In this document: piece by piece, positions 19,052 through 59,956 of the stretch
Layout: every line of letters starts with the position of its first letter
How positions within the stretch are numbered: position 1 is the first letter of the stretch
DNA from: Nautilus pompilius
Taxonomy: Eukaryota; Mollusca; Cephalopoda; Nautilida; Nautilidae
NCBI GenBank assembly: GCA_018389105.1
Contig: JACATO010001218.1
Coordinates: 26,769 to 90,768 of the forward strand
Reading direction: 5' to 3'
DNA: 64,000 bases
The notes under the pieces: model-generated
The model's database searches: none
Seen by the model: only the letters and a program-made list of their open reading frames with translations
What the model was told of the DNA's origin: nothing
Translations under genes and position numbers: made by a program

Positions 19052-21171
19052 GGTAGTAGAGCACATTATTATTCGTACCACTACATAATGTTGATAGAGA
19101 CCAGTATTATTGAAAGGCAATATTGTGTTGGTAGAGCTCTGTATTATTGTAATGCTATATTATGTTGCTAGAGACCAGTATTATTGTAATGTAATATAAT
19201 GTTGGTAGAGCCCAGTAATATTGTACCGCTATATTATGTTGGTAAAGCTCAGTATTATTGTACCGCTATATTATGTTGGTTGAGCTCAGTATTATTGTAC
19301 CGCTATATTAAGTTGGTAAAGCTCAGTATTATTGTACCGCTATATTAAGTTGGTAGACCTCAGTATTATTGTACCGCTATATTAAGTTGGTTAGACCTCA
19401 GTATTATTGTACCGCTATATTATGTTGGTAAAGCTCAGTATTATTGTACCGCTATATTAAGTTGGTTGAGCTCAGTATTATTGTACCGCTATATTATGTT
19501 GGTAAAGCTCAGTATTATTGTACCGCTATATTATGTTGGTTGAGCTCAGTATCATTGTACTGCTACATTATGTCGGTAGAGCACAGTATCATTGTACCGC
19601 TATATTAAGTTGGTAGAGCTCAGTATTATTTTACCGCTATATTGTGATGGTAGAGCCCAGTATTATTGTACCGCTATATTATGTTGATAGAGCTCAGTAT
19701 TATTGTACCGCTATATTGTGATGGTGGAGACCAGTATTATTGTACGCTATATTAAGTTGGTAGACCTCAGTATTATTGTACTGTTATATTGTGATCGTAG
19801 AGCCCAATATTATTGTACCGCTATATTATGTTGGTAGTGCTCAGTATTATTGTACCGCTATATTATATTGTTAGAGCACAGTATCAATGTACTGCTATAT
19901 TAAGTTGGTAGAGCTCAGAATTATTGTACCGCTATATTGTGATTGTAGAGCCCAATATTATTGTACCGTTATATTATATTGTTAGAGCACAGTATCATTG
20001 TACTGCTACATTATGTCGGTAGAGCACAGTATCAATGTACTGCTATATTATGTTGGATGAGCTCAGTATCATTGTACCGCTATATTATGTTGGTATAGCT
20101 CATAATTATTGTACTGCTATATTATGTTGGTAGAGCTCAGTATTATTGTACCGCTATATTTTGATGGTAGAGCACAGTATCATTGTACCGATATGATATG
20201 TTGGTAGAGCCCTGTATTATTGTACTGCTATATTATGTTGGTAGGGCTCAGTATTATTGTACCGCTATATAATGTTGGTAGAGTTCAGTATCATTGTACC
20301 GCTATATTATGTTGGTAGTGCTCAGTATCTTTGTACCGCTATATTATGTTGGTAGAGCTCAGTATTATTGTACTGCTATATTGTGATGATAGAGCCCAGT
20401 ATTATTGTACCGCTATATAATGTTGGTAGAGTTCAGTATCATTGTACCGCTATATTATGTTGGTAGTGCTCAGTATCATTGTACCGCTATATTATGTTGG
20501 TAGGGCACAGTAACATTGTACTGCTATATAATGTTGGTAGAGCTCAGTATTATTGTACTGCTATATTATGTCTGTAGAGATCAGTATTATTGTACCACTA
20601 TATTATGCTTGTAGAGCTCAGTATTATTGTACTGCTATATTATGATGGTAGACACCATTATTATTGCACCACTCTATTCTGTTGGTAACGGTCAGTATTA
20701 TTGTACTGCTATATTGTTGGTAGAGCCCAGTATTATTGTATCGCTATATTATGTTTGTAGACACCATTATTATTGTACCGCTATATTATGTCGTTAGAGC
20801 CCAGTATTATTGTACTGTTATATTATGTTGGTAGAGCACAGTATTATTTTACCGCTATATTGTGATGGTAGACACCATTATTATTGCACCGCTCTATTAT
20901 GTTGGTAAAGGTCAGTATTATTGTACTGCTATATCATGTCGTTAGAGCCCAGTATTATTGTACCGCTATATTATATTTGTAGACACCTTTATTATTGTAC
21001 TGCTATATTATGTCGGTATAGCACAGTATTATTGTACCACTATATTATGTCGGGAGAGCACAGTATTATTGTACCGCTATATTATGTTGATAGAGCTCAT
21101 TATTATTTTACCGCTATATTGTGATGATAGAGCCCAGTATTATTGTACCGCTATATTATGTTGGTAGAGCT

Positions 21172-21781
21172 CAGTATTATTGTACCGCTATATTATGTTG
21201 GTAGAGCTCAGTATTATTTTACCGCTATATTGTGATGATAGAGCCCAGTATTATTGTACCGCTATATTATGTTGGTAGTGCCCAGTATTATTGTACCGCT
21301 ATATTATGTTGGTAGAGCTCAGTATTATTGTACCGCTATATATGTTGGTAGTGCCCAGTATTATTGTACCGCTATATTATGTTGGTAGAGCTCAGTATTA
21401 TTGTACCGCTATATATGTTGGTAGTGCCCAGTATTATTGTACCGCTATATTATGTTGGTAGAGCTCAGTATTATTGTACCGCTATATATGTTGGTAGTGC
21501 CCAGTATTATTGTACCGCTATATTATGTTGGTAGAGCTCAGTATTATTTTACCGCTATATTGTGATGATAGAGCCCAGTATTATTGTACCGCTATATTAT
21601 GTTGGTAGTGCCCAGTATTATTGTACCGCTATATTATGTTGGTAGAGCTCAGTATTATTGTACCGCTATATATGTTGGTAGTGCCCAGTATTATTGTACC
21701 GCTATATTATGTTGGTAGAGCTCAGTATTATTGTACCGCTATATATGTTGGTAGTGCCCAGTATTATTGTACCGCTATATT
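21172..21781. repeat. 330-bp higher-order copy, perfect over 280 bp
   Basis: Positions 21,172-21,451 equal 21,502-21,781 base for base. The offset of 330 bp equals nine monomers, three of them 36 bp long instead of 37. Within it a 73-bp dimer marked by the shortened CTATATATGTTGG recurs near 21,339, 21,412 and 21,485. Confidence 0.93.
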
Positions 21782-22703
21782 TTGTTGGTAGATCTCAGTA
21801 TCATTGTACTGCTATATTATTTTGGTAGACACCATTATTATTGTACCGCTATATTATGTCGGTAGAGCCCAGTATTATTGTACCGCTTATATGTTGGTAG
21901 TGCCCAGTATTATTGTACTGCTATACAACGTTGGTAAACCACATTGTTTTGGTTCCGTGATATTATGATGCTTGTGCGAATTATTATTGTACCGTAATAT
22001 TATTTTGGTAGAGCTCAGTATTATTGTACCGCTTTATTATGTTGGAAGAGTCTTGTATTATTCTACCGCTATATATTGTTGGTAGAGCTCAGTACTATTT
22101 TAACGCAATATTATGTTGATAGAGCTTTGTATTATTGTAATGCAATATTATGTTGGTATTGCACAGAATCATTGTACCGCTATATTATTTTGTTACAGCT
22201 CAGTATTATTGTACCGCAATATTATGTTGGTATTGCGCAGTATTATTGTATCGTAATATTATGTTGGTAGAGCCCAGTATTATTGTATTGCAATATTATG
22301 TTGTTATTGCACAGTATCATTGTACCGCTATATTATGTTGTTAAAGCTCAGTATTATTGTACCGCTATAGTATGTTGGTAGTGACCACTTTTATTGTACC
22401 GCTATATTATGTTAGTAGAGCCGAGTATTATTGTACTGCTATATAACGTTGGTAAAGCACCGTCTTTTAGTACCGCAATATTATTTTGGTAGAGCCATGT
22501 ATTAATGAATGGCTATAATTTGAGTGTGGAGTACAGTATATATTACCGACATATTATGCTAATAGACACCAGTATTGTTGTATCTCTGTATTATGTTTAT
22601 ATATTCCAATATTATTGTATGCTTATATTATGGTGATGGATTACAGTACATATTACTGCTATATTATCTTGGTTGAGTACAGTATTTATTACCGCTATAT
22701 TAT

Positions 22704-22843
22704 GTTTGGAGTGCCCAGTATTATCGCTGCGTTATATTAAGTAGGAAAATTCCAGTATTATTATACGTCTATATTTAGGTGTTGGAGTAAAATGTATATT
22801 TCTGCTATATTATTTTACCAGACCACATTATTATTGTACCGAT
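22704..22843. repeat. Left copy of a flank-specific four-monomer block
   Basis: This stretch carries unusual markers in order: TTATCGCTGC, TATTATTATACGTCTATATT and TATTATTTTACCAGACCAC. The same order recurs at 50,431-50,564 and 50,902-51,041 on the far side of the 36-mer zone. The mariner element sits immediately to its right. Confidence 0.85.
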
Positions 22844-22846
22844 ATA

Positions 22847-22872
22847 CGAGGTCTGTCGAAAAAGTATCCGAC
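22847..22872 (+). repeat. Mariner left terminal inverted repeat
   Basis: Twenty-five bases (22,848-22,872) match the right end exactly in reverse complement. The outermost base is C here and A (in reverse complement) at the right end. Preceded by the TA target copy. Confidence 0.96.
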
Positions 22873-23047
22873 TTTATTTTTTCCGTGGGAAGTAATGAAG
22901 TTAGGGAGGCAAAAATGTGCATAGTGGAGCCGGATGTCTTCATGCGCATGCGTGGTTTTTGGCGGGCTTGCTGGATGCGTCAGTCGCTGTCAGGTAGCCA
23001 TCGTGTGAGGTGCTACATGACTTACTCGTCGCATTTCCATTTCGACC

Positions 23048-24105
23048 GTGATGACGGGAACGTGTGAGCAACGATCTTGCATCAAGTTTTGCCAAAAACT
23101 TGGGAGACACCCAAGCGGAAACAATTCGCAAAATTCAACAGGTGACAATGCCATGGGTGTTACCCAAATAAAAGAATGGTACAACAGGTTCAAAGATGGC
23201 CGCACATCGGTGGAGAGTTACCAGCGTTTCTGGGAGGGGGACCGTCAACAAGCCACAATGCAGTTGTTATCGAGAAAGTGCGCACCTTGATAATGGAGGA
23301 TCATCGTTTGACGGTGCGGGAAATTGGTGATGATGTTGAGATCAGTAAAGATTCTGCACATGCAATTTTAAAGGAGGATTTGAGCTCGCGCAGAGTGGCA
23401 GCAAAATTTGTGCCCAAGCTGCTTTCTCAGGAACAACAACAACTTCGTCTTGAGGTTGCACAGGACCTGCTGGATACTGCCAGCTGGGATCTTGAGTTCC
23501 AGAATACCGTGATAACTGGAGATGAGACGTGGGTGTACGGGTACGACCCAGAAACCAAAGCTCAGTCATCACAGTGGAAGCACCCAACGTCACTAAGGTC
23601 CAAAAAAACACATCAGGTCTGGAGCAAAATCAAGGTGATGCTGACTGTTTTCTTTGACTACTGAGGTGTTGTGCATCGCAAATATGCACCAGAAGGACAA
23701 ACAGTTACAAAGGAGTACTATCAGGAAGTCCTCCGACGTCTTCGTGATGCAGTTCGGCGCAAGACACCAGATCCGTGGGCCTCGCAAAACTGGCAGCTGC
23801 ATCGAGACAACACCCCGGCTCATTCATCATAGCTGATCCAAGGTTTCTTGGCAAAAAAAGGCATTTCGCTGATTCGCCAGGCTCCCTACTCTCCAGACAT
23901 GGCTCCTTCTGACTTCTGGTTATTCCCAAAAATGAAGATGCCACTGAAAGGTTCCCGCTTTGAGAGCTGAGAGGACATCATGCGGAATGCGATGGCAGAG
24001 CTGAGAGCCATTCCGGAAGAAGCATTCCAGACGTGCTTTGAACAGTGGAATGATCGCTGGGCTAAGTGTGTGGAGGCACAAGGGGCCTACTTCGAAGGGG
24101 ATTAG
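23048..24105 (+). pseudogene. Mariner transposase, disrupted
   Basis: The coding remnant spans about 352 codons, the usual mariner length. The N-terminal helix-turn-helix region reads EQRSCIKFCQKLG and later IKEWYNRFKDGRTSVES. After a frame change near 23,230-23,250 come LTVREIGDDVEISKDSAHAI (second helix-turn-helix) and the catalytic region. The first Asp is in TGDETWVYGYDPETK (about 23,518-23,562), the second in WQLHRDNTPAH (about 23,791-23,823), and the third in YSPDMAPSDFWLF. This is the DD34D arrangement with all three acidic residues still present. Damage consists of one frameshift and three in-frame stops (TGA 23,662, TAG 23,830, TGA 23,968). The natural stop is TAG at 24,103-24,105. 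ATG at 23,048 or 23,051 is the likely start. It once cut and pasted the element at TA sites and is now non-functional. It resembles the SETMAR-like mariner transposases common in animals. Confidence 0.95.
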
Positions 24106-24152
24106 CAATTTAACGCCACCAAGTACGTAATTTTGTTTTTTTCCAGCCTAAG

Positions 24153-24178
24153 GTCGGATACTTTTTCGACAGACCTCT
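24153..24178 (-). repeat. Mariner right terminal inverted repeat
   Basis: Reverse complement of the left terminal repeat, perfect over 25 bases (24,153-24,177). Followed by TA at 24,179-24,180 and then resumed satellite sequence. Confidence 0.96.
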
Positions 24179-24180
24179 TA

Positions 24181-26484
24181 TTATAATCGTAGAGCCCAGT
24201 ATTATTTTAACGCCGTATCATGATACTAGTGCCCAGTATTATTGTACCAATATATGTTGTTGGGAGATCTCAGTATTATTATATCGATATTTTATTATGA
24301 TGGAGCCAAATATTATGTAACGCTATATTATGATAGAGCACGGTACTATTGTACCACTATTTTATATAGGGAAATCCCAATATTATTTTACGGCTATATT
24401 AATGCGGTGGCGTACAGTATCTGATACCGTTATATTATCATACTAGAGCCCAGTATTATTGTATCGCTCTATTTTGATTATAGAGCTCAGTATTTGTGCC
24501 GATATATTATGGTGTTGGATTACAATATATATTACCGCCGATATTATGACATTAGAACCCAGTATTTTTTTTACCGCTATATTATTTTTGGAAATACCAG
24601 TATTATAGTTCCCCTATATTATGTTGAGCGAGCACAGTATTATTGTTCGGCTATATTATGGTGTCGGATTACAGTATATATTACCGCTATATTATAATAT
24701 TAGAGCCCAGTATTATTGTACCGGTATATTATTTTTGTGGAGGACAGTATTATTGTACCGGTATATTATTTTTGCTGTGCGCAGTATTGTTGTTTGGCTT
24801 TATTATGGCAATGGAGTACAGTATATATAACCGCTTTATTGTGTTACAAGAGCCCAGTATTATGGTGCTACTATATTATGGTGGAGGAGTAAAGTAATAT
24901 TGTGACGCTGTATTATGTTGGGAGGGCCCAGTATTATTCTACATCTATATTAGGGTGGTGGAGTACAATAGATATCACCGCTATATTATTGTACCGATAT
25001 ATTATGATGGAAGAGACTATTATTTTAGTACGGATATATTAAGGTGGTTGACTACAGTACACATTACCGCTATACTATGATACTAGAGCCCAGTATTATT
25101 ATACCGCTATATTATCGGGGTGGAGGACAATATATATTACCGATATATTATCATTATCATGGTAGAACCAACCCAGTATTATTGTACCGCGATATTATGT
25201 CGGGAGAGCCCTGTATGATTGTTCCACTATATTATGATACTAGCGCCAATTTTTATTGTGTGGCTATATTATAATACTATAGCCCAGTATTATTAAACCG
25301 GTATATTATGTAGAGAGATCCCAGTATTATTGTTCGGGTATATTATGGTAAAGCACTACGGTATATATTACCGGATATTATGAAACTAAAGCCTATTATA
25401 TTTGTACCTCTATATTATGTGGGGAGACACCAATATGTTTTTACGGTATTTTATGGAGGTGGAGTATATTATATATATTGCCGTATAAAATATGACACTA
25501 GAGCTCAGTATTATTGCACCGCTATATTATAATACTAGAGACCAGTATTATTTTACGGCTATATTATGTTGGGAGTGTCGAGTATTATTGCACCGCTATA
25601 TTATAATACTAGAGACCAGTATTATTATGCTGCTATATTATGATACAAGAGAACAGTATTATTGTACCGCTATATTATGTTTGCTGTGCGCAGTATTGTT
25701 GTTCGGGTATATTATGGTAATGCAGTACAGTATATATAACCGATATATTATGTTACAAGTAACCAGTGTTTTGGTAACGCTATATATATTATGTACGAAG
25801 ATCACAGTATTATTGTTCGGCTATATTATGGTAAAGCAGTACAGTATATATTACTGCAATATTATGATAATAGAGCCAAGTATTATTATACCTATATTGT
25901 AAGTAGGGAGAGCACAGTATTATTGTACCGCTATATTATGTTGGGAGAGCCCAGTATTATATAAAGGTATATTATGGTGGTGAAGTAAAGTATTATTGTG
26001 CCTCTATATTATGATACTAGTGCCCAGTATTTTTCTTCCGTTATATTATAATACTAGAGACCAGTATTATTGTACTGCTATATTATGATACAAGAGAACA
26101 GTACTATTATACCGCTATATTATGTTGGGAAAGTCCAATATTATTGTACGGTATATTATGTTGGTGGAGTACAGCATATATAACCGTTATATTATAAATT
26201 TTAGATATAAGTATTATTGTATCGCTATATTATATTGGTGGAATTAAGTATATATTAACGGTATATTATGATACTAGAGCTCAGTATTATAGTACCGCTA
26301 TAATATATAGGGCGATCCCATTATTAATGTAATGTATATTATGTTGGTGGAGTAAAGTATATATTGCCGCAATATTATGATGGTAGAGCCCAGTATTATT
26401 CTACCTCTATATTAGGTAGGGAGATCGCAGTATTGTTGTACATCTCTATTATGGTGGTATAGGACTGTATATATATTATAGCAA
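24181..26484. repeat. Satellite zone B: mixed 36/37-bp monomers
   Basis: Units of the 37-bp kind (GATACTAGAGCCCAGTATTATT) alternate irregularly with the 36-bp kind (GGTGGTGGAGTACAGTATAT). Divergence is high and many units have indels. Local copies are visible: about 24,765-24,850 resembles 25,675-25,765 (marker TTGCTGTGCGCAGTATTGTT), and 25,600-25,680 resembles 26,045-26,130. Confidence 0.9.
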
Positions 26485-27944: not shown

Positions 27945-28110
27945 GAGTCCAGTATATATCACCGTAATATATGTGGGAGAAACCACAGTAAATATCACCG
28001 CTATATTATGGTGTGCAGTACAGTATACTGTATATCACCGAAAGGAGTACAGTATATATCACCGCTCTATTATTATTGATGAGTCCAGTATATATCCCTG
28101 CTGTTTTATG
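27945..28110. repeat. Segmental copy within zone C (left copy)
   Basis: Matches 29,224-29,390 at an offset of 1,278 bp. Both copies contain the unusual run GTGTGCAGTACAGTATACTG followed by ATCACCGAAAGGAG and a CTCTATTATTATTGATGAG unit. Confidence 0.88.
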
Positions 28111-31800: not shown

Positions 31801-33076
31801 TTTCACCTGAAAATTATTATTGAAGAGTACAGTATATATCACCGCTATATTATTAGTGAGGATTACAGTATATCTCACCGCCATATTTTGTGCAATGTGT
31901 ACAGTATATATCAACTCTATTTTATGGGGGAGTACAGGATATTTCACCGATATATTATTAGTGAAGAGTACAGTAATATATCACCGCTATATTATTATTG
32001 AGTATTGCAGTATAATTCACCTCTATTTTAAGGAGAAGTAGTGTATATATCACAGGTATATTATTTGTGATTAGTACAGTATATATCACCGCTATATTAT
32101 ATGGGTGGAGTACAGTATATTTCACCGGTATATTATTGGAGAGGAGTACAGTATATATATCACCACTATATTATTAGTGAGAATTACAGTATATTTCACC
32201 GCTATATTATGGGGGAGGAGTACATTATATATCACCACTATATTATTAGTGAGAATTACAGTATATTTCACCGCTATTTTAAGGAGAAGTAGTGTATATA
32301 TCACAGGTATATTATTTGTGATTAGTACAGTATATATCACCGCTATATTATATGGGTGGAGTACAGTATATTTCACCGGTATATTATTGGAGAGGAGAAC
32401 AGTATATATCATTGCTATATTATTAGTTAAAGTACAGTATATATCACCGCTATATTATTAGTGAGAAGTATAATATATTCTTACCGCTAAATTATGTGAG
32501 AGGAGTACAATATATTACACCCTTATATTATTAGAGAGAAGTACAGTATATATCACCGCAATATTAAGTGGGAGGTGTACCGTATATTTCATCGCAATAT
32601 TATTATGAGGAGTAGTGTATATATCACCGCTACATTACTAGTGAGAAGTACAGTATATATCACCGATATTTTAAGGGGGAGGAGTAGAGTATATATCACA
32701 GGTATATTATTTGTGAGAAGTACCATATATTTCACCGCTATATTATCTGTGAGAAGTACAGTATATTTCACTGCTATTTTACAGGTGAGTAGTAAAGTAT
32801 TTATCACTGCTATATTATTAAGTAAGAATAACAGTATATTTCACCGCTATTTTAAGGAGGAGTAGAGTATATATCACATGTATATTATTTGTGATTATTA
32901 CAGTATATATCACCGCTTTTTATTTGGAAGTAGTATAATATATATCACCGCTGTATTATCTGTGTGGAGTACAGTATATTTCACCGCTATATTATGTGGG
33001 ATAAGTACAGTATATATCACCGTTATATTATGGTGGAGGAGTACAGTATATATCACCGTTATATTATGGTGGAGGA

Positions 33077-33790
33077 GTACAGTATATATCAGCACTATAT
33101 TATGGTGGAGGAGTAGAGTATATATCACAATTTTATTACTTGTGAGGAGTACAGTATATATCAGCGCTATATTATGGTGGAGGAGTAGAGTATATATCAC
33201 AATTTTATTACTTGTGAGGAGTACAGTATATATCAGCGCTATATTATGGTGTGGGAGTAGAGTATATATCACAATTTTATTACTTGTGAGGAGTACAGTA
33301 TATATCAGCGCTATATTATGGTGGAGGAGTAGAGTATATATCACAATTTTATTACTTGTGAGGAGTACAGTATATATCAGCGCTATATTATGGTGTGGGA
33401 GTAGAGTATATATCACAATTTTATTACTTGTGAGGAGTACATATATATCAGCGCTATATTATGGTGGAGGAGTAGAGTATATATCACAATTTTATTACTT
33501 GTGAGGTGTACAGTATATATCAGCGCTATATTATGGTGGAGGAGTATAGTATATATCACAATTTTATTACTTGTGGGAGTACAGTATATATCAGCGCTAT
33601 ATTATGGTGGAGGAGTATAGTAATATCACAATTTTATTACTTGTGAGGAGTACAGTATATATCAGCGCTATATTATGGTGGACGAGTAGAGTATATATCA
33701 CAATTTTATTACTTGTGAGGAGTACAGTATATATCAGCGCTATATTATGGTGGAGGAGAACAGCATATATCACAATTTTATTACTTGTGA
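33077..33790. repeat. 72-bp higher-order repeat, about ten copies
   Basis: Two 36-mers, one with CAGCGCTATATTATGGTGG and one with CACAATTTTATTACTTGT, alternate regularly. The second type starts its CAATTTT motif at 33,128, 33,200, 33,272, 33,344, 33,416, 33,487, 33,559, 33,629, 33,701 and 33,773, a period of 70-72 bp. Copies are nearly identical, so the expansion is recent. Every copy of the second monomer has lost the CGCTATATTA core. Confidence 0.95.
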
Positions 33791-33956
33791 GGAGTACAGT
33801 ATGTATCATCGCTATATTATGGTGGAGGAGAACAGCATATATTACCACTATATTATTAGTGAAGAGTAGAGTATGTATTACCGCTATTTTATTGGGCAGA
33901 AGTACAGTATTGTATCACCTCCATATTTGGGTTAGAAGTACATTATGTTTCACTGA

Positions 33957-34210
33957 TATATTAATAGTTTGGAGTACTGTGTATATCGCCACTTTATTAT
34001 TGAAGAGGAGTACAGTACATATCACCGATATATCATTAGTCAGGAAACAGTATATATCATCGCTATTTTATGGGGCAGTAGTACAGTACACATCAGCGCC
34101 ATATTGATAGTAAGTACAGTTTATATCACCGATATTTTAAGGCGGAGGAGTAGAGTATATATCACAGGTATATTATTTGTGAGTAGTACATTATATATCA
34201 TTGCTATATT
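33957..34210. repeat. 463-bp-offset duplication (left copy)
   Basis: About 250 bp nearly identical to 34,420-34,673, with only a few substitutions such as GTATATCGCC versus GTATATCACC and CATTAGTCAGG versus CATTTGTCAGG. The right edge joins different monomers in the two copies. Confidence 0.92.
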
Positions 34211-34283
34211 ATGTGGGAGGAGTACCTATATTTCACCGCTATATTATTATTGAGGAGTACAGTATACATCACCGCTATATTAT
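34169..34283. repeat. Long-range identical block (left copy)
   Basis: All 115 bases equal 49,883-49,997, 15,714 bp away, including the irregular short monomer GGAGGAGTACCTATATTTC. Flanking monomers differ on both sides. Confidence 0.93.
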
Positions 34284-40020: not shown

Positions 40021-40180
40021 CATATATATCACCACCATATTATTAGTGAGTTGTACAGTATATATAATCACCGCTATATTATTAATGAGTAGTGCGGTAT
40101 CTTTCACATGTCTTTTATGTTGGAGAAGTACAGTATATATCACCGCTATATTATTACTGAGGAGTACAGATTATATCACC

Positions 40181-45010: not shown

Positions 45011-48000
45011 TATAATAATAATCGCTAATATTATTAGTGAGGAGTACAGTATATTTTCACCCGCTATATTATGTGGGAGGAGTTCAGTATATTTCACCAC
45101 AATTTTTGAGGGAGAAATACAGTATATTTCACTGCTATATTATTAGTGAGGAGTATAGTATATTTCACCGCTATTTTATGAGGTAGAAGTACAATATATT
45201 TCAACGCTATATTATGTTGGAGGAGAACAGTATATATCAACGCTATTTTATTGGTGAGGAGTACAGTATATATCAGCGCTATATTATGGAGAGGAGTATA
45301 GTGTATATCATCGCCATATTAATAGTGAGTAGTATATTTATTTCTCCGCTATATTATGGAGGAGGAGTACAGTATATATCACCGCTATATTATTAGTGTG
45401 AAGTACAGTATATTTCATCGCTATATTATATGGGAGGAGTACAGTATATATATAATCGCTATATTATTAGTGAGGAGTACAGTATATTTCATCGCTATAT
45501 TATATGGGAGGAGTACAGTATATATAATCGCTATATTATTAGTGAGGAGTACAGTATATTTCACCGCTATATTTTGTGTGTGGTGTACAGTATATATCAG
45601 CGCTATATTATGTGGAAGGAGTATTATATATATCTCCACTATATTATCGGTGAGGAGTATAGTATATTTCACAGGTATATTATGTGGGATGAATGCAGTA
45701 TTTATCACCGCTCTATTATTAGTGAAGAGTACATTATTTATCAAAGCTATTTTATTAATGATGAGTACAGAATATATCACCGCTATATTATATGAGAGGA
45801 GTACAATATATGCAACCGCTATATCATTTGGGAGGAGTACAGTATATTTCACCGCTATATTATTAGAAAGGAGAATCGTGTATATCACGGCTATATTTTT
45901 AGTTAGGAGTACATTATTTAGCACTGAAATATTATTACTGAGGAGTTCAGTATATATCACCCCTATAATATCTGGGATGAGTACAATATATATCATCGTT
46001 ATATTATTAATGTAGATTTCAGTATTTTTCATCGGTATATTATTTGGGAGGACTATTGTATACATCCTCGCTTATTATTAATAAGAAGTAAAGTTATTTT
46101 ACTGATATATTATGGGGAAATAGTATAGTATTTATAACTGCTAAATTATGTGTGAAGAGTATAGTATATATCACCGCTATCTTTTTTTTTAGGAGTACAG
46201 TATATATATCAATGATATATTATGTGTGACAAGTACAGTGTATATCACCGCTATATAATGGGGGAGGAAAACAGTATATATGACCGATATATTATTTGGG
46301 TGCAGCATAGTGTGTATAAAATCTATATTATGGTGGAGGAGTACAGTATATATCACCGCTATATTATTAGTAAGGAGTACAGTATATTTCACCGCTATAT
46401 TATGGTGGAGCAGTACAGTATATATCACCGGAATATAATGGGGGAGGAGTAGTGTATATATCACCGCTATATTATAAGTGAGGTGCAGACTATATGTCAC
46501 CACTATTTTATGTGTGATAACTACAGTATATATCACCGCTATATTATTAGTGAGAAGTACCGTATATTTCACCGATATATTATTAGTGAGGAGTAGACTA
46601 TATATCTCCGTTATATTATGTGGGAGAAGTAAAGTATATAACACCGTTATATTATCAGTGACGATATCATATATATCACCTCTATATTCTCAGGAAGTAG
46701 TACAGTATATATCACCGCTATAATATGTGGGAGGAGTAATGTATATTTCACCGCTATATTATTAGTGAGGAGTGCAGTATCTTTCACTGGTATTTTATGT
46801 GGAAGTAGTACAGTATATCAAACCGCTATATTATGTGAGAGGAGTACAGTATATATCACCACTATATTATGGTGTTGGAGTACAGTATATATCACAGCTA
46901 TTTTTTTAGTAAGTAGTATGATATATTTTACCTCCATATTATTTGTGAGAAGTACAGTATATTTACCTGCTATATTATGGGGTATTAATACAATATATTA
47001 CACCGCAATTTTATGAGGGAGTAGTACAGTAAATATCACCGCCATATTATTAGTAACGAGTACAATATATTTCACAGCTATATAATTAGTTAGGAGTAGA
47101 GTATATTTCACGTCTATATTAATTGGGAAGAGTATTGTTTTTATCACAGCTATATTATGGAGGAGTACAGTATATTTTTCCACGCTATATTATGTGGGAG
47201 GAGTACCGTATATTACACCGCTATATTATCAGTGACGATACCATATATATCACTTCAATATTCTGAGGAAGTAGTACAGTATATAACACCGCTATATTAT
47301 CAATGAGCAGTACAGTATATATCACCGCTATATTATTAGTTAGTTGTAAATTATATATCAACGCTATATTATTACTGAGTAGTACAGTATATATCACAGC
47401 TATAATATGTTGTAGGAGTACTGTATACATCATCGCTATATTATTAATATGCAGTAGAGTTCATTTCACTGATATATTAAGATGAGTAGTATACTATATA
47501 TATTTGCTTTATTATGTGGGAGGAGGGTAGAATATACTTCGGCTATATTATTTGGGAGGAGGACACTATAATATCACCGCTATATTATTAATGAGGAGTG
47601 CAATATCTTTCACAGGTCTTTCATGTTGGAGAAGTATAGTATATACACCTCTATATTATTAATGATGATACCGTATATATCATCTCTATATTCCGGGGGG
47701 GGTAGTACATTATATATCACCGCCATTTAATGGGAGGAGTAAAGTATATTTCACCGCTATATTTTTGGGCAGGTGTCCTGTATATATATCACCGCTATAT
47801 TAAGTAGAACGAGTATAGTATGTATCACCGCTATATTATCAGAGATCAGTACAGTATATATCACCTCTATATTATTAGTCATGAGTACATTATATGTTCA
47901 CCGCTATAATAATATGTGGGAGGAGTACTGTATACATCATCGCTATATAATTAATAAGTAGAGTTTATTTCACTAATATATTATGGAAAGAGTTGTATAC

Positions 48001-50140
48001 TATATATCTGCTATATTATGTGGGAAGAGGGAAGAATATATCACGGCTATATTATTTGGGGGGAGGAGAGTATATTTGACCTCTATATTATATGGGAGGA
48101 GGACAGTATATTTCACCGCAATATTATTTGGGGGAGTACAGTATATTTCACCTATATATAATGTTGGGAGGGGTACCGTGTACTTCACTGCTATATTATT
48201 AGTGAGGAGTGCAGTATCTTTCCCCGGTATTTTATATGTGGGAGAAGTACAGTATATAACACCGCTATATTATCAGTGACGATACCATATATATCACCTC
48301 TATATTCTGAGGAAGTAGTACAGTATATATCACCACTATTTTTTTAGTAAGGAGTTTGATATATTTTACCTCCATATTATAGTAGTTAGGAGTACAGTAT
48401 ATATCACCGCTATATTATTAATGAGGAGTGCGGTATCTTTCACATGTCTTTTATGTTAGAGAAGTACAGTATATAACACGCTATATTATTACTGATGATA
48501 ACGTATATATCCACTCTATATTCCGGTGGAGTAGTACAGTATATATCACCGCCATATTATTAGTGTGAAATACAGTATATATCACCGCTAATTTTTAGTA
48601 AGGAGTATGATATATTTTACCTCCATATTATTAATTAGGAGTACAGTATATATCACCGCTATATTATTAGTAAGGAGTACAGTATATATCACCCCTATAA
48701 TATGTGAATGGAGTACGGTATATATCCCCGCTATATTATTTGTGAGGTGTACAGTATATATTTCACCGCTATATTATGGGAGAAACGTACAGTATATATC
48801 AGCGCTATACTATGGGAGATGCTTCCAGTATATATCACCGCTATAATATGTGGAAGGAGTACGGTATATATCACTGATATATTATTCGTGAGCAGTGCTG
48901 AATAGATCACCGATACATTATTGGTGAGGAGTACAGTATATTTCACCACTATATTATGGGGGAGGATGGGAGATTATATCACGGCTATATTATTTGGGAG
49001 GAGTACATTATATATCAGCGCTATATTATATGAGAGGAGTAGAGTTTATATCACCGCTATATTATTAGTGAGGAGTATAGTATATATCATTGCTGTATTA
49101 TCAGTGTGGAGTATAGTATATTTCACCGCTATATTATGTGGAAGCAGGTCAGTATATTCCACCGCAATATTATTAGTGAGAAGTACAGTATCTTTCACCG
49201 CTATATTATGAGGAAGGAGTACGGTATATATCACCCCTATATTATGTGGAGGAGTACAGTATATATCACCGCTATATTATTAGTGAGGAGTATATTATAT
49301 ATCAGCGCCATATTATGTGGGAGGAGTACAGTATATATCACCGCTATATTATTAGTGTGGAGTACAGTATATATCAGCGCTATATTATGTGAGAGGAGTA
49401 CAGTATATATCACCGTTATATTATTAGTTAGGAGTACAGTATGTTTCACCGCTATATTATGTTGGAGGAGGTCAGTATATTCCACCGCAATATTATTAGT
49501 GAGTAGTACAATATATATCACTGCTATATTATGATTGAGTAGAATAGTTTATAACACCGATATATTATATGGAAGTGGTAAACTATATATCACCATTATA
49601 ATATTAGAGAGGAGTACTACATATTTCACAGCTATATTATTTGGGAGGAGTACAGTTTCTATTACCTTTATATTATTGCGACGAGTACATATATATCAGC
49701 GCTATATTATGTGAGAGTAGTACAGTTTATATCAGCACTATATTATTTGAGAGGAGTGCAGTATATTTCACCGTTATATTATCGGTGAGGAGTATAGTAT
49801 ATATCACCGGTATATTATGTGGGAGGAATACAGGATATATCACCCCTATATTTTTTGGGAGGAGTACAGTTTATATCACCCCTATATTATTTGTGAGTAG
49901 TACATTATATATCATTGCTATATTATGTGGGAGGAGTACCTATATTTCACCGCTATATTATTATTGAGGAGTACAGTATACATCACCGCTATATTATGTT
50001 TGAGGAGGATATTATATAACACCGACATATTATATGTGAGTGGTAAAGTATATATCACCGCTATATTATTAGTGAGAAGTACAGTATGTTTCACTGCTAT
50101 ATTATGTGGGAGTAATACAGTATATATCACCGGTATATTA

Positions 50141-53100
50141 TTTAGGGAGATCCTAGTACTATTGTACGGTAAATAATGTTGGTGGAGTACACTACATATT
50201 ACTGCATTACTCTGATGCTTGATATTAGTATTTTTGTACCGCTATATTATGTATGGAGATTACAATATTATTGTACGGTATATTATGTTGGTGGAGTATA
50301 GTATATTTCCGTTATATTATGATACTATAGCCAATTATTATTTTTCCCCTTTAATATGGTGGTGGAGCCCAGTTTTATTTTCCCGATATAATATCTTTGG
50401 ATATCCCAGAATTATTGTCCGATATATAATGTTGGGAGTGACAAGTATTATCGCTGCACTGTATTATGTAGGAAGATCCCAATATTATTATACGTCTATA
50501 TTTAGGAGGTGGAGTATATTGTGTATTTCCCCTATATTATTTTACTAGACCACAGTATTATTGTACCTCTAAATTATGGTGATGGAGTACAGTATATATT
50601 ACCGCAATATTATGATATTAGAGCCCAGTGTTATTGTACTGCTGTAATATGTAGGGAGATCCCATTATTATTGTACGGTATTATGGTGGGTGTACTACAG
50701 CATATATTACCTTATTATTAAGATACTAGATCCTAGTATTGTGGTCCCACTATATTATGTATGGAGATCACAATATTATTGTACGGTATATTATTGTGGT
50801 TGAGTACAGTATATATTTCCGTTATATTATGATACTATAGCCAATTATTTTTCCACTTTATTATGGCGGTAGAGCCCAGTTTTATTGTACCGATATATTA
50901 TGTTGGGAGTACCAAGTACTATCACTGCACTATATTGTGTAGGGAGATCCCAGTATTATTATACGTTTATATTTAGGAAGTGGAGTACAATGTATATTTC
51001 CGCTATATTATTTTACTAGACCATAGTATTATTGTACCTCTATATTATGGTGGTGGAGTATAGTATATATTACGCAATATTATGATATTAGAGCCCAGTG
51101 TTATTGTAGTGCTGTAATATGTAGGGAGATCCCATTATTATTGCACGGTATATTATGGCGGTGGAGTACATTATATATCACTGCTATATTATGTAAGGAG
51201 ATCCTATTATTATTGTACGGTATATTATGGTGGTGGAATACATTATATATTACCTCAATATTATGTGGGTGGAGAACAGTATTATTGTACCTCTATATTA
51301 TGTTGGTGTAGTTCAGTATATATTACAGCTATATTATGATAATTGAGCCCAGTATTATTGTATCGCTATATTATGATACTTGAGGCCAGTATTATTGTAC
51401 CGCTATAATATATAAGGAGATCCGAGTATTATTGTACTCTATATTATGTTGGTGAGTACGCTATATATTACCGCTATATTATGGGTGTTGGAGTACAGTA
51501 TATATCATCACTTTATTATGATACTATAGCGCATTATTATTTGCTGCTTTATTATGATGCCAGATCCTATTATTATTGTCCAGCTATATTATGTAGGGAG
51601 ATCCTAGTATTACTGTACGGTATATTATGGTGGTGTAGTGCAGTATATATTGCCGCAATATTATGATACTAGAGCCCAGTTTTATTGTACGCTATATTTT
51701 GTTAGTAGAGCCCAGTATTATTGTTCCGCTATATTATATTTGGAGAGCCCAGTATTATTATAATGCTATAGTATGTTGGGAGAACCCTTTATTATTCTAC
51801 GGCAATATTTTGCTGGTGGAGTACAGTATATATTACCGATATAGTATGTTGGTGGAGCCCAATATTATTGTTCGGCAATATTATGATAATAGATTCCAGT
51901 ATTAATGTAACTCTATGTTCAGTTGGGAGAGTCCAGTATTATTGTCCCGCTATATTATGACACTAAAGCACACTATTATTGTACGGCTATATTATGCTCT
52001 TTGAGTGCAGTATATCTTACCTTTATATTAGGCTCTTTGAGTGCAGTATATCTTACCTTTATATTATGATATTATTGCCAGGTATTATTGTACCGCTATT
52101 TTATGATACTAACGCCCTGTATTATTGTAAAGCTATATTATATCTGTGGAGGATAATATATAGTACCGATTATTATGATGGTAGTGCTCAGTATTATTAT
52201 ACAGCGATATTAGGTTGAAAGAGCCCTTTATTATTGTACTGCTATATGGTGATACAAGAGCCCAGTATTATGGTACCGGTTTATTATGATGGGAGTGTCC
52301 ATTATTATTGTACGGTTATATTATGATGGAAGAGCGCAGTATTATTGTTCCGCTATATTAAGGTGGTGGAGTACAGTATATATTACCGCTCTTCTATGAT
52401 ACTAAATCCCAGTATTATTGTATGGCTATATTATGGTTGTGGAGTACAATATGTATTGCCGCTATATTAAACTATTTGAGTATAGTATATATATAAAACC
52501 GTTATATTATGATACTATAGACTAGTATTATTATACTATTATATTATGAAACTAGTGCCCAGTATTATAGTACCACTATATTATGATATTAAAACCAGTA
52601 TTAGCGTATGGCTATATTAAGGTGGTGGAGGACAGTATATATTACCGGTATTCTATGATACTGTAGCCCAGTTTTATTGTACCGCTATATTATGTCGTTG
52701 CAGGACAGTATATGTTAACGCTATATGATGTTTGAGGAGTCCCGTATTATTGTACGGCTATATTATGGTGTTGGAGTACAATATATATTACCGATATATT
52801 ACGATGCCATAGCTAAGTAATATTGTACCGCTATATTATGTTGGGAGAGCCCATTATTATTGTAAGGCTATATCATGGTGGTTGAGTACAGTATATATTT
52901 CCGTTATACTATGATACTATAGCCCAGTATTATTCTACTGCTATATTACTTTGGGAGATCCAAGTATTATTTTAGGGCTATATTATGCTGTTGTAGTACA
53001 GTATTTATTGCCGTTATATTATGATAATATAGCCCAGTATTATTGTATTGCTATATTATGAAACTTGTGCCCAGTATTATTGTACCGCTATATTATGATA

Positions 53101-54001
53101 TTAAGACCAGTATTTTTCTACGGCTATATCATGGCGATGGAAGACATTACATATTAACGATATACTATGATGGTAGAGCTCAGTATTATTTTACCCCGAT
53201 ATTAGATTGGAAGTGCCCTGTCTTTTTGTACCGCTATATTATGATACAAGAGCCCAGTATTATTCTTCCGCCTTATTATCTAGGTTGATCCCAGTAATAT
53301 TTTACCGCTTTATTATGTAGGGAGATTCCATTATTATTGTACCGCTATATTATGGCGCTGGAGAGGAGTATATATTACCGCTATATTATGTACGGAGATC
53401 TCCGCTTTTTGTACTGGTATATTATGGTGTTGGAGTACTGTATATATTACCGATATATTATTATACCAGAGCCCATTGTTATTGTACGGTATATTATGTT
53501 CAGAGTGCCCTGTATTATTGTACTGCTATATTTTGATGTGAGAAGCAAGTATTATTGTACCACTATATTATGTGGGAGAGCACAGTATTAATGTACGTCT
53601 ATATTATGTTGAAGGATTACTACATATATTACCACTATATTATGTCGGAGTAGAGTATTATTTTATGACTATGTTATGATATTATACCCAAGTATTAATG
53701 TACTGCTATATTATGAAATTAGAACCCAGTATTATTGTACTACTATATTATGATACTAAAGTCCAGTATTATTTTAGGGCTATATTATGGCGGTGGAGGA
53801 CAGTATATATTAGCGGTATATTATGAAGGTTGAGCTCAGTATTATTGTACCGCGATATTCTGCTTGTGGTGCCCCGTATTTTATACGGCAATATTATAAT
53901 ACAAGAGCCTAGTTTTATTTTTCAATTTATTATTTAGGGAGTTTCCATTATTATTGTACGGTTTTATTATGTTTTGAGAGCGCAGTATTATTGTTCAGCT
54001 A
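50141..54001. repeat. Satellite zone D1: mixed 36/37-bp monomers
   Basis: Resembles zone B: 37-mers with GATACTAGAGCCCAGTATTATT alternate with 36-mers carrying GGTGGTGGAGTACAGTATAT, with many indels and point changes. It contains a tandem copy (50,253-50,690 versus 50,761-51,175) of a block of about 470-508 bp. Divergence is high elsewhere. It resumes after the inserted MITE at 54,589. Confidence 0.9.
50253..51175. repeat. Tandem duplication of a ~0.5-kb block
   Basis: Two copies start at 50,253 and 50,761. The offset is 508 bp at the left end and 470 bp near the GAGCCCAGTGTTATTG marker (50,621 versus 51,091), so indels have accumulated. Each copy contains the flank-specific block also present at 22,704-22,843. 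Confidence 0.88.
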
Positions 54002-54003
54002 TA

Positions 54004-54586
54004 CAGTTGTCCCCCGGTATTCGCGGGGGTTACGTTCCTAGAGCACCCGCGAAGAGTGAAAAACCGCGAATATTGGACATGGTCCATAAAAATGCCTATA
54101 AACGTCAAATATAACGTAAAATATAAGTAAATATATAATAATAATTTAATAAAAAATACAACACTCAGAGAAACACTCGAGATAGCTACACGCGGGTAAA
54201 CTGGGATGATGCGGGGCTGCATCTGCCTGAGACAGCGCCTCGTGGGCAGCAGCCAATCAGCAGCGAGGAGAAATGAATAACGCCTCGGATTGGCTACTTT
54301 CAAACCTCCAGCCAATAGCGTTTATTTTATATCGATATTTTGCTGAATTTACGTTAGTATTTATATTACAAAATTAGTAAATTATATTGTTATTAATAAT
54401 TTAGCGTTAAAAAGCGTGAAAAAAAATATATTGCCACGAAAAAAGGCATAAAAAATCCCGGAAGATATTTGCGATTCCGTGAATATGCGGGGATTTCCAC
54501 GAACAATTATTAGTTAGGTTCTAAGGAAAATTCCGCGAATAACCGGGGCCGCGAATGCCGAACCGCGATTACGCGGGGGTCGACTG
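54004..54586. mobile_element. Tigger/pogo-like MITE, 583 bp
   Basis: The ends are imperfect inverted repeats, CAGTTGTCCCCCGGTATTCG on the left and the reverse complement of a right end that reads CAGTCGACCCCCGCGTAATC inward. TA lies on both sides (54,002-54,003 and 54,587-54,588). Removing the element and one TA restores a satellite core followed by TGATACTAGA. The CAGT..CCCC(C/G)G terminus with GCGGGGGTTACGTTCC inside is typical of Tigger/pogo-type non-autonomous elements. There is no transposase. A minus-strand frame of 106 codons (53,995-54,315) has no transposase motifs. Three CCAAT boxes lie in the interior. Confidence 0.88.
54253..54316. promoter_or_regulatory. Three CCAAT boxes inside the MITE
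   Basis: CCAAT occurs at 54,253-54,257 (plus), as ATTGG at 54,289-54,293 (minus) and at 54,312-54,316 (plus). Two have the longer GCCAATCAG or GATTGGCT context preferred by NF-Y. Spacings are 36 and 23 bp. Whether they act is unknown. Confidence 0.4.
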
Positions 54587-56219
54587 TATTGTGATACTAG
54601 ACCCCAGTATTATTATACGGCTATATTATGGTGTTGGAGTTCAGTATATATTACCGCTAATCTATGGTGTGGGAGTTCAGTATATATTACCGATATATTA
54701 CGATGCCAGAGCACAGTATTATAGTACAGCTATATTTTGTAGGAAGAACCCAGTATTATTTTATTGGTATATTATGTTGGTGAGTACACTATTTTTTACC
54801 GTAATACTATGATACTAGAGCCCAGTATTATTCTACTGCTATATTATTTAGGGAGAACCAAGTATTATTTTACCGCTATATTATGCTGGTGGAGTACAGT
54901 ATATCTTACCGTTATATTATGATACTATAGCCCAGTATTATTGTACCGCTATATTATTGCGGTGGAGAACTGTATATATTAACGATATATTATGATGGTA
55001 GAGCTTAGTATTATTTCTACCCGACATTAGGTTGAAAGTGCTATGTATTTTTCTACCGCTATATTGTTTTATTAGATCCCAGTATTATTGTAAGGCTATA
55101 TTAAGGTGGTGAGGTACAGTATATATTACCTCTATTCTTTGAGACTAAAACCCAGTATTATTTTATGGCTATATTATGGTGGTGGAGTACAGTATATATC
55201 ACTGCTATATTATGCTGTTGGAGTACCGTATATGTTACCGGTATATTATGGTACACTAGCCCATTATTATTATACGGCGATATTAGGTTGGGAGAGCCGT
55301 GTATTATTGTACTGCTACATTATGACACTAGACCCCAGTATTATTGTACCGCTTTATTATGTAGGGAGATTCCATTATTATTGTACGGATATATTATCAT
55401 TTGAGTTCCCTGTATTATTGTACTGCTATATTATGGCTGTGGAGGAGAGTATATATTACCGCTATATTATGTAGGGATATCTCCGTTTTTTGTACTGGTA
55501 TATTATGGTGGTGGAGTACAGTATATATTACCGATATATTATGATACTATCGCCCAGTTTTCTTGTTCCGCTATATTATGTAGGAAGAGCCTACTATTAT
55601 TGTTGGACTATATTATGTTGGCAGAGACCAGTATTAGTGTACCGCTATATTTTGGTAATGCTGTACAGTATATAATACCGCTATATTATTATGGTTGAGA
55701 CAAGTATTATTGTACCACGTTATTATGTTGGGAGATTCCAGTATTATTGTACGGTATACTATGGTGGTGGAGTACATTATATATTACCGCTATATTATAA
55801 CACTAAAGCCCAGTATTATTATACTGCTATGTTTTTTTTTTTTTTGGAACAGCTCAGTATTATTGTATCGCAATATAATGTTGGGAGAGACCAGTATTAT
55901 TGTACTGCTATATTATGTATGGAGATTACTGTATTATTGTAAGGCTATACTATTGTGGTTTAGTACAGTATATATTACCGCTATACTATGATACTTGAGC
56001 CCAGTATTATTCTATTGCTATATTATGGTAGTGGAGTACAGTATATATTACCGCTATATTATGATACTATAGACCAGTATTATTGTACCGCTATGCTATT
56101 TTGGGAGAGCCCAGTATTATTGTACTGCTGTATTATCTTGTTGGAGTACAGTGTATATTACCGGTATATTGTTGGGAGATCCAAGTTTTATTGTAGGGGT
56201 ACAGTTTTATTCTTCGGCG

Positions 56220-56850
56220 ATATTATGGTGGTGGAGTACAGTATATGTAACCGCTATTCTATGGTAATGGAGTACAGTATATATTACCGATATATTACGG
56301 TGGAGGAGTACAGTATATATTACCGCTATATCAAGGTGGAGGAGTACAGTATATATTAACGCTATATCAAGGTGGTGGAGTACATTATATATTACCGCTA
56401 AACTATGGTGGTGGAGTACAGTATATATTACCGCTATATCAAGGTGGAGGAGTACAGTATATATTACCGCTAATCTATGGTGGAGGAGTACAGTATATAT
56501 TACCGTTATATCAAGGTGGAGGAGTACAGTATATATTACCGCTAATCTATGTTGGAGGAGTACACTATATATTACCGCTATATCAAGGTGGAGGAGTACA
56601 GTATATATTACCGCTAATCTATGGTGGAGGAGTACAGGATATATTACCGCTTTACTGTTGTGGAGTACACTATATATTACCGATATATCAAGGTGGAGGA
56701 GTACAGTATATATTACCGCTGTATCAAGGTGGAGGAGTACAGTATATATTACCGATATATTATAGTGGAGGAGTACAGTATATATTACCCCTAAACTATG
56801 ATGGAGGAGTGCAGTATATATCACCGGTATATTATGGTGGAGGAGTATAT
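56220..56850. repeat. Local 36-bp / 72-bp homogenised block
   Basis: Units with GGTGGAGGAGTACAGTATAT repeat every 36 bp. CTATATCAAG and CTAATCTATG variants alternate over part of the block to give a 72-bp dimer. The minus strand stays open for 205 codons (56,207-56,824) for this reason. Confidence 0.92.
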
Positions 56851-57127
56851 TATTATTTCTTCGGCCATATTTTGGTGGTGGAGTAGAGTATATATTTATT
56901 AACGCTATATTAATCTGGTGAGAACAGTATATATTACCACTATATTATGATACTAGAGCCCAGTATTATTGTTTCCCTATATTATTTTGGTGTAGTACTA
57001 CATATATTACCGCTATATTACGGGGAAGGAGTACAGTATATATAACCGCTATACTATGTTGGATGAGTTCAGTATATATTTCCGCTATATCAAGGTATGG
57101 AGTACATATATATTACTGCTATACTAT

Positions 57128-57570
57128 GATACTAGAGCCCTGTATTATTGTACCTCTATATTATGATATTAGAGCCCGGTATAATTTTACCGCTATCTTA
57201 TGTAGGGTGATCCCAGTATTATTGTATGACTATGTTATGGTCGTCAATTATAGTATATATATGAACGCTATATGATGGTGGAGGAGTACAATATATATTA
57301 CCGCTATATTAATGATACTAGAGCCCTGTATTATTGTACCTCTATATTGTGATATTAGAGCCCAGTATAATTTTACCGCTATATTATGTAGGGAGATCCC
57401 AGTATTATTGTATGACTATGTTATGGTCGTCAATTATAGTATATATATGAACGCTATATGATGGTGGAGGAGTACAATATATATTACCGCTATATTATGA
57501 TACTAGAGCCCTGTATTATTGCACCTCTATATTGTGATATTAGAGCCCAGTATAATTTTACCGCTATATT
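57128..57570. repeat. 185-bp higher-order repeat, 2.4 copies
   Basis: GATACTAGAGCCCTGTATTA starts at 57,128, 57,314 and 57,499 (186 and 185 bp apart, five monomers). Shared irregular markers are ATGACTATGTTATGGTCGTC and ATATATGAACGCTATATG. Confidence 0.92.
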
Positions 57571-59956
57571 ATGTTGGTAGAGCCCTGTTTTATTGTACCC
57601 TTATATCATGATAGTAAAGCCTCTTATTATTGTACCGCCTTATTATGATACTAAAGCCCAGTATTATTGTGCCGCTATATTATGGCGGTGGACGACAGTA
57701 CATATTACCAATATATTATGGGGGTGAAGTACAGTATACATTTCTGATATATTATGATACTAGGGCCCAGTTTTTTTTATTGTACCTCTATATCATTTTG
57801 GGAGAGCCCAGTATTTTTGTATGGCTATATTATTTTGGTGTAGTACTACATATATTACCGCTATGTTATGGTGGTGAAGAAGTACAGTATATATTACCTT
57901 TCTATTATGATTCTAGAGGCCAATATTATTATACAGATATATTATGTTACTAGAGCCCTGTATTATTGTACCTCTATATCATGTTAAGTGAGCCCAGTAT
58001 TATTGCAACGCTATATTATTTTGGGAGAGCCCATTATGATTGTGTCGCTACATTATGATACTAGATCCCTGTATTATTGTACCTCTGTATTGTGATACTA
58101 GAGCCCAGTATTATTGTATCGCTATATTATTTCTGGAGATCCCATTATTATTGTACGTTATATTATGGTGGGTGAGTACACTATATATTATGATACTAGA
58201 CCCCAGTATTATTGTACCGAAATATTATGGTGGTAGTTCACTTTATTATTGTATAGATATATTATGGTGGTAGACCACAGTATTATTGTACAGATATATT
58301 ATGTTGGAAATGCCCAATATTATTGTACCGCTGTATTATGTTGAGAGAGACCTGCATTATTGTACCGATATATTATGATGGTAGTGCCCGGTATTATTGT
58401 ACCAATAAATTTGGCTCGTAGATCAGAGTTTTATTTACCTATTTATTAGGGTGGTTGATCACAGTATTATTTTGCGGATATATTATGGTGGTAGTTCACT
58501 GTGTTATTGTCCCGCTATATTATGATGGTAGAGCTCAGTGTTATTGTACCTCTTCATTATGGTGGTACTTCACAGTATTATTGTACCACTATATTATGAT
58601 GTTTTTTGAACATATTATTGTACCGCTCTAATATGTTGGTAGAGCACATTGTTATTGTACCAGTATATTATGATGGTAGAGCACAGTATTATTGTACCAC
58701 TATATTATGATGTTAGAGCACAGTATTATTGTACCACTATATATGATGGTAGAGCACAGTATTATTGTACCACTATATTATGGTGGTAGAGGACAGTGCC
58801 TTTGTACCGCTCTATTATGGTGGTAGAACACAGTATTTTTGTAGCACTATATTATGATGGTAGTGCACATTATTATTGTACTGATTTATTATGATTGTTG
58901 AGCACAGTATTATTGTACCTCTATTTTATGGTGGTAGATGAAAGTATATTGTTACTGCTTTATTATTATGGTAGAGCACATTATTGTTGTACCACTATAT
59001 TATGGTGGTAGTGCACTGTATATTTGTACTGCTTTATTATTATGATAGAGCACAGTATTATTGTACCGATATATTATGGTGGTTTATCACAGTATTATTG
59101 TACCGCTCTATTATGATGGTAGAGCTACACTATTGTTGTACCGCTCTATTATGATGGTAGAGCACAGTATTATTGTACCGCTATATTATGATGATGGAGC
59201 ACAGTATTATTGTACCGCTTTATTATGATGGTAGTGCATATTGTTATTGTACGATTATATTATTGTGGTAGAGTACAGTATTATTGTACTGCTCTATTAT
59301 TATGATGGAGCACTGTATTATTGTAACGCTCCATTATGATGGTAGAGCACAGTATTGTTGTACCGCTATATTATGATGCTAATAATATGAATAGTATGAT
59401 TATCATGTTAAGAATTTGATATCTGATAATAAAAACAATCATTAACTCGACTTGTTAGTACAGTTGATTATAAATCATCGTATTTTCCAGAAATTGTTAG
59501 AGCTGTCGTCATTTTTACGTCATCAGTAATTAAATATGGTTATCCACTGACTGCTGGAGATTGAAAATACCTCTCCCTCGAGACATCGTCGCAGCAACGG
59601 GATTTCTACGATGACGATCACAAGGTACTGTGATGTCAGTTCACAATAACAATAAGAATTACTTATAATTCATTTTGATTTATTAATTTTATTATTCGAT
59701 GTGGTTACTTTGAAGACAGACATTACGTACTTTTGAGATGTTTCTAAGTGACATAAAAAGCAGTAGAGTTGTCATCAGTACGCCTTAGTATGGCAGGCAT
59801 AAAGTTATTCTTATTCTGCTTAGCCATACGAGTCGGGGGGGGCAGCATGGGGGATCGGTACAATGACGCGGACCAGAGTTTCCTTTGGCTGTAAAGGGAC
59901 GCAACTCGCGTGGTCACACCTTTCATCCGGTAACAAACTTCACTAGTGAGTGTCCC

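Follow-up and report, generated by a model that had tools for sequence, protein, structure and literature searches.

Mirrored layers of related monomers in a 40-kb satellite array of Nautilus pompilius

Satellites usually lie in arrays that are too long or too uniform to read. The monomer of primate alpha satellite is about 171 bp long, and large minisatellites, whose monomer range takes in 36-37 bp, have local variant maps. For primate alpha satellite, two papers describe ever more derived variants that expand in place and split older layers (Shepelev et al. 2009, PMC2729386; PMC4496801). Diverged monomers at array ends are described as a source of new satellites in a review (PMC10048060). 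In this study, we analysed a stretch of 64,000 nucleotides of Nautilus pompilius DNA (contig JACATO010001218.1, positions 26,769 to 90,768), hereafter the window, and a satellite array at positions 19052-59380 within it. The results showed that the array consists of mirrored layers built from at least five related monomer types, and that it has a higher-order unit of 110 bp. With borders, a higher-order unit, an intermediate sequence and block copies in one stretch of about 1060 readable monomers, the locus allows growth models (in-place expansion, block conversion and insertion from elsewhere) to be compared on real data.

Layers and genealogy of the array

The array is one head-to-tail tract of 36-37-bp monomers, all on the plus strand, with both borders present; it is 40.3 kb long and occupies 63% of the window. 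Tandem Repeats Finder (TRF) returned overlapping rows of period 36-37 over nearly all of 19052-59380. Monomers were delimited by wraparound alignment to two consensuses, one of 37 bp and one of 36 bp, and only those inside 19050-22850, 24178-54003 and 54590-59380 were kept. Of the resulting 1060 monomers, 346 belonged to the 37-bp kind, 251 of them with exactly that length, and 714 to the 36-bp kind, 551 of them with exactly that length. The match of the monomers to the consensus averaged 82-83%, whereas non-array DNA aligned with equal leniency reached 53%. The re-phased set held 1057 of the 1060 rows, the last row and rows without a contiguous right neighbour being left out. Self-BLAST with both strands allowed kept 1397 matches, all plus/plus, and the 13-mer ACCGCTATATTAT occurred exactly 170 times on the plus strand (first at 19225, last at 59362) and 0 times on the minus strand.

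Hidden Markov models (HMMs) built from all 395 monomers outside the central layer B (described below) and 400 of the 662 B monomers were searched against both flanks, where the best match (E 1.4) did not surpass the best one in shuffled sequence (E 0.62). The left and right flanks had no repeat in common at E 1e-3. The array was therefore captured with both borders, and the same lack of a common flanking repeat led us to drop the idea that it is cargo of a larger element. An initial annotation had described a ~40-kb satellite of 36-37-bp monomers, in a single orientation over nearly two thirds of the window and complete end to end. All of this was borne out, and the tandem-repeat finding and monomer clustering that it proposed confirmed the array and resolved several types.

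Its description of one array holds for the single oriented tract but not for the content, which is not uniform: at least five related types form several discrete layers, with two inserted elements among them. When started at the core, the monomers separated cleanly into G, k and w (37 bp), x (36 bp), an x-derived run at 56.2-57.1 kb, and B (36 bp); G differs slightly between the two array ends. Domain limits were set from TRF breaks and type strings, after viewing the same data. The layers are as follows:

19052-22470, plus strand: L1, outer left layer of 37-bp type G, consensus ACCGCTATATTATGTTGGTAGAGCTCAGTATTATTGT, the most homogeneous part
22471-26476, plus strand: L2, inner old layer on the left, a mosaic in which x (36 bp), w and k (both 37 bp) follow the order x>w>k and some G occurs
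26477-50129, plus strand: B, central layer with consensus ACCGCTATATTATGGTGGAGGAGTACAGTATATATC, made up of about 660 monomers of 36 bp that show sub-variants in the tract following TATTAT
50130-56200, plus strand: R1 and R2, inner old layer on the right, an x-w-k mosaic with some G
56200-57110, plus strand: x-derived 36-bp run, a separate small expansion whose consensus is exactly between x and B
57110-58300, plus strand: R2b, inner old layer on the right, containing a 186-bp pentamer repeated about 2.7 times
58300-59380, plus strand: R3, outer right layer of 37-bp type G, consensus ACCGCTATATTATGATGGTAGAGCACAGTATTATTGT

Assignment of each monomer to its nearest type gave G at both ends, the x/w/k mosaic with some G on both sides, and B in the middle. 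G was nearest for 78 of the 92 monomers of L1 (14 ambiguous) and for 24 of 27 in R3. Within 26440-50142 (n=662), which a TRF row of period 36 covers from 26470 to 50142, there were 573 B monomers, 65 B/x ties, 12 x, 4 w or G and 8 ambiguous. This layer forms the middle ~24 kb of the array, and its monomers share only ~75% identity; the mean pair identity in L1 was 0.836. Outside B, 4 of 395 monomers were nearest B (3 in the 56.2-57.1-kb run) and 22 were B/x ties (12 in the run). Within the run itself, 22 of 25 monomers were nearest x, B/x or B. The pentamer of R2b was reported by TRF at 57099-57597 with 95% matches, and its self match was 97.7% over 264 bp at offset 186.

Inside the mosaic, x>w>k steps outnumbered reverse steps by 31:8 in L2, 37:11 in R1, 20:6 in R2 and 11:2 in R2b (permutation p 0.001, 0.002, 0/1000 and 0.03, respectively). 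The cycle was chosen after the labels had been seen, yet it holds separately on each side of B; such an order would give the 110-bp period reported by TRF, as a three-monomer higher-order unit. Monomer identity between L2 and R1, across 24 kb of B, was 0.666, against 0.662 within L2 and 0.669 within R1. The identity between L1 and R3 (0.774) was the highest between any two different domains. Both B borders fall between whole monomers and keep the register: on the left, B comes after k-x and starts directly after an x monomer, and on the right, B is followed by k-x.

The type consensuses were then compared. The consensus of G differs from those of k and w by 3-4 changes and from that of x by 8-9, and k, w and x differ from one another by 5-11, part of the distance to x being a one-base shift counted column by column. 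Among G, k, w and x, the medoid was G in all of 1000 bootstraps (857 with right G, 143 with left G). The run at 56 kb is one change from x and one change from B, and x was nearest to B in 1000 of 1000 bootstraps; the middle layer is thus derived, stepwise, from the layer that surrounds it. If the central type is ancestral, the layers from outside to inside (G; x/w/k; B) run from ancestral to derived types.

We consider it probable that this non-coding satellite array grew in place by successive expansions, each splitting an older layer. An ancestral 37-bp monomer G would have formed the first array. The x, w and k variants would then have formed the 110-bp three-monomer unit, amplified inside the G array, and B, a 36-bp derivative of x, would then have amplified inside x/w/k to about 24 kb. 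Each older layer would thereby have been left as two remnants, one per side, and the left G remnant may have been renewed later. Inside the layers, turnover would have proceeded by local amplification of 2-5-monomer units, and also by the copying of blocks that range from a few monomers to about 25, in some cases across kilobases.

The same borders and genealogy bear on the alternative that the B block was made elsewhere, at another locus or on an extrachromosomal circle, and was inserted whole into the x/w/k array by homologous recombination between monomers. Sharp, in-register borders with no graded transition across them would fit such an insertion, as would the position of the x-to-B intermediate run, which lies 6 kb from the B border and not at it. 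However, x, the intermediate run and B are all found at this one locus, so that an outside source is unneeded, and B starts directly after an x monomer. We regard insertion from elsewhere as unlikely, although it deserves some weight.

Divergence, block copying and the proposed growth in place

As a measure of relative age, we used the divergence per site in the 13-base core common to all types, which needs no sorting by type. Core divergence was 0.116 (95% interval 0.110-0.123) in B and 0.141 (0.130-0.152) in the mosaic (L2 0.142, R1 0.147, R2 0.128, R2b 0.137). The lower value in B is the one expected under the layered model. Toward the outside, right G was compatible with the predicted gradient and left G was contrary to it.

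An earlier measure, the match of monomers to their own consensus, had shown no difference (B 0.828; x 0.833, k 0.834, w 0.862; G 0.858 and 0.916) and was dropped as biased by row selection: for G, k, w and x, only rows chosen by clustering had entered (75 of 92 in L1, 25 of 27 in R3), whereas B had been represented by all 662 rows. When all types were clustered together, six B-rich clusters gave 0.809-0.886 and three others 0.828-0.862. Replacing the biased measure by the unselected core count slightly raised our support for expansion in place.

Several observations weigh against growth in place by nested expansions. The left G edge, L1, is the least diverged part of all (core 0.080, 95% interval 0.063-0.099), and right G, R3, with 0.137 (0.108-0.168), is not separable from the mosaic or from B. 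The 56-kb run, which precedes B in the chain of types, has a core divergence of 0.150, like the mosaic. Block copying makes monomers non-independent, so the divergence intervals are too narrow. The symmetry is imperfect, with an extra run on the right side only and 3.4 kb of L1 against 1.1 kb of R3, and at the right border B is followed by k where the cycle would predict w. Domain limits and the x>w>k cycle were picked from the same data on which they were tested, and the order of ancestors and descendants rests on the centrality of G, without an outgroup. Under a model in which G is oldest, the low divergence of the left G edge means that it must have been renewed, probably by its amplifications of 2-4 monomers.

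Self matches revealed 130 partly overlapping block pairs of at least 110 bp, none of which joins B to another layer: 63 lie in L1, 60 in B, 4 in the 56-kb run, and one each joins R1-R1, R1-R2 and R2b/R3. The largest block score in B was 2.83, compared with 0.33 and 0.29 in two runs with permuted monomer order. Copies within B include:

32966-33842, plus strand: recent local amplification of a 72-bp dimer (808-bp self match at offset 72, 94.6%)
39694-40612, plus strand: block of about 25 monomers that recurs at 47381-48334, 7.7 kb away, as either source or copy
47381-48334, plus strand: partner copy of the preceding block, identified by self matches

In the dimer tract, 23 monomers had a mean identity of 0.943 at lag 2. 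The two distant blocks shared stretches of 96.9% and 96.8% identity (offsets 7687 and 7722), broken by a patch of dissimilar monomers; beyond them likeness fades, except for one further, slightly shifted stretch of 174 bp at 91%. The copying of isolated blocks across kilobases would fit gene conversion or template switching better than it fits simple unequal crossing-over. An identical 115-bp pair in B (34169-34283 and 49883-49997), 15.7 kb apart, is a further sign of long-distance copying. In B, adjacent monomers resembled each other no more than random pairs did (lag 1, z -0.7), but second neighbours were more alike (lag 2, z 6.6), a faint dimer rhythm. A frozen, star-like B layer, which equal adjacent and distant identity had suggested, was dropped once the block copies were found.

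Differences between monomers showed little or no excess of transitions. The transition/transversion ratio was 0.50 in B (0.57 without the variable columns) and 0.46-0.82 in five types outside B, values that founder variants and conversion confound; reading this lack of transition bias as a mutation signature was given up. A stricter count in the duplicated blocks gave 474 to 733, overlapping pairs included; it replaced a count of 103 to 195 that was contaminated by alignment ends running out of the true duplication.

Near-identical units in L1 and in the 33-kb dimer tract also mean that copy number could err with short reads, and the length or layout of the array might then be an assembly artefact. 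The longest exact repeat in the whole array, however, is 280 bp (in L1; 188 bp in the dimer tract) and B identity is only ~75%, so ordinary long reads would order the array, which two unrelated transposons also anchor. We therefore hold an artefact to be highly improbable.

Core sequence, insertions and flanks

All seven type consensuses share their first 14 letters, ACCGCTATATTATG. To this extent the core sequence that the initial annotation gave as the common trait stands, whereas the exact 13-mer is carried by only ~16% of monomers. Within layers, variability at T and A sites was about the same inside the core as outside it, in a comparison that left out four hypervariable columns. In B, the change in the core and elsewhere was 6.1% and 6.0% at T sites and 9.4% and 12.3% at A sites; in L1 it was 7.4% and 10.8% at T and 6.5% and 6.8% at A. 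In B, the frequency of change was about double at G and C sites, all of which lie outside the TATATTAT part. We rejected functional constraint on the core, as change within layers is explained by base, and the "one conserved core" of the initial annotation was not borne out in the sense of present-day constraint inside layers. Past constraint is possible, as the consensuses never differ in the first 14 columns.

With 36 bp equal to 12 codons, part of B could in principle code for a repetitive protein. B holds long open reading frames (ORFs) of up to 263 aa, and its third forward frame has 40 stops against 69 when columns are shuffled independently (330 gapless monomers of 660). This stop shortage is due to linkage in the variable tract: it vanishes (40 against 42.6, z -1.1) once the linked tract is kept as a block, and no frame of B is then preferred. 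Moreover, the commonest length change is to 35 bp, reading by hand showed no stop in any of the three forward frames of the B consensus, and two B ORFs tried against Pfam gave no match. We give a coding role next to no probability. No Rfam 15 family reached its gathering score in the window. The array, with head-to-tail copies in one orientation, is most likely a selfish or neutral satellite and presumably carries no sequence-coded function; its description as a non-coding satellite useful for studying growth and decay stands.

The resemblance of the layering to that of alpha satellite around centromeres, as described in PMC2729386 and PMC4496801, raises the question of whether the array is a centromere, or part of one, or another chromatin-organising locus, its layers having arisen through drive or selection acting on B. 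The small size of the array, which non-satellite DNA bounds within 64 kb, and the absence of constraint on the core inside layers speak against such a role. This explanation is very improbable.

Two elements are inserted in the array:

22847-24178, plus strand: mariner-type transposon with a TA target duplication, terminal inverted repeats of ~26-33 bp and a broken reading frame
54004-54586, plus strand: 583-bp, TA-flanked element resembling a miniature inverted-repeat transposable element (MITE), with CAG...CTG ends and poor terminal inverted repeats

The inverted repeats of the mariner are 94% complementary over 33 nt. Its ORF at 23176-23664 matches the Mos1 transposase (E 5.7e-6) and reaches Pfam Transposase_1 only below the cut-off (E 0.027). 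By eye, it has flanking TA and an in-register monomer on both sides. The second element, which we take to be a pogo/Tigger-like MITE, has an internal inverted repeat of 16 nt at 88%. Judged by eye, the array continues in register across both insertions, and both sit after the same core TA, which is not remarkable because each 37-bp monomer has about seven TA sites (hand count). Both insertions lie in the x/w/k layer, two cases only.

In the flanks, the ratio of observed to expected CpG was 1.02 and 1.16. A degenerate interstitial telomere-like tract of (CTAACC)n, TTAGGG-type, lies at 9217-9709 (~82 copies, 78% matches by TRF), with a transition count of 24 to 17, unlike the array monomers. Together with the Mos1-like mariner, these features suggest an animal without heavy CpG methylation, probably an invertebrate. 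A 1.4-kb ACAA/ACAG tract at 13942-15375 varies almost entirely by transitions (154 to 3 against its 8-mer) and holds long chance ORFs on the minus strand. Just left of the array, at 17012-17169, is a 43-bp tandem repeat of 3.7 copies, of which a 55-bp piece recurs at 96%. Seventeen Pfam queries with flank ORFs, some overlapping, gave none above the cut-off and one below it (DUF3624, E 0.059).

No match was found in exact-pattern scans of viral contigs (mariner end included) and GTDB genome contigs, in blastn of 3.7 kb of L1 against phages, or in blastn of 6 kb of B against plasmids; these results are uninformative because they are expected for a eukaryotic satellite. Five exact monomer strings were absent from the literature searched, and no named family was recognised for the monomers in a comparison made without Dfam or Repbase.

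From its sequence, the locus might be read more boldly, as a complete small layered satellite with three nested repeat generations in an invertebrate, possibly a compact centromere or another chromatin-organising locus. We consider this quite unlikely; if true, the expanding-layer model would become testable at a single locus outside vertebrates and plants, with borders and intermediate state preserved.

Comparison with known systems

The array is a neat instance of a type of sequence that is already known and not a new kind. Its monomer length and local variant maps are like those of large minisatellites, but about 1060 monomers in 40 kb and a multi-type higher-order unit are large for one. 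Its 36-37-bp units are not the ~171-bp monomers of alpha satellite, from which it also differs in its length of 40 kb instead of megabases, its different sequence and the lack of centromere evidence here. A further difference is that one outer edge of the Nautilus array is its least diverged part.

Discrete types, partly symmetrical layers, a derived middle and higher-order units are shared with primate alpha satellite as PMC2729386 and PMC4496801 describe it. In alpha satellite the older layers also hold transposons, and the two insertions found here lie in the x/w/k layer, a number too small for a judgement. The array is also like the satellite "life cycle" model, in the part of PMC10048060 that describes an occasional variant being amplified into a new run that then decays, with little mixing between runs. 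Unlike the diverged ends described there, the ends here keep the type that is central to the others, and the derived variants lie inside. These comparisons suggest that layering of the alpha-satellite type occurs in an unrelated repeat at the scale of 40 kb, where the age gradient is present only in part.

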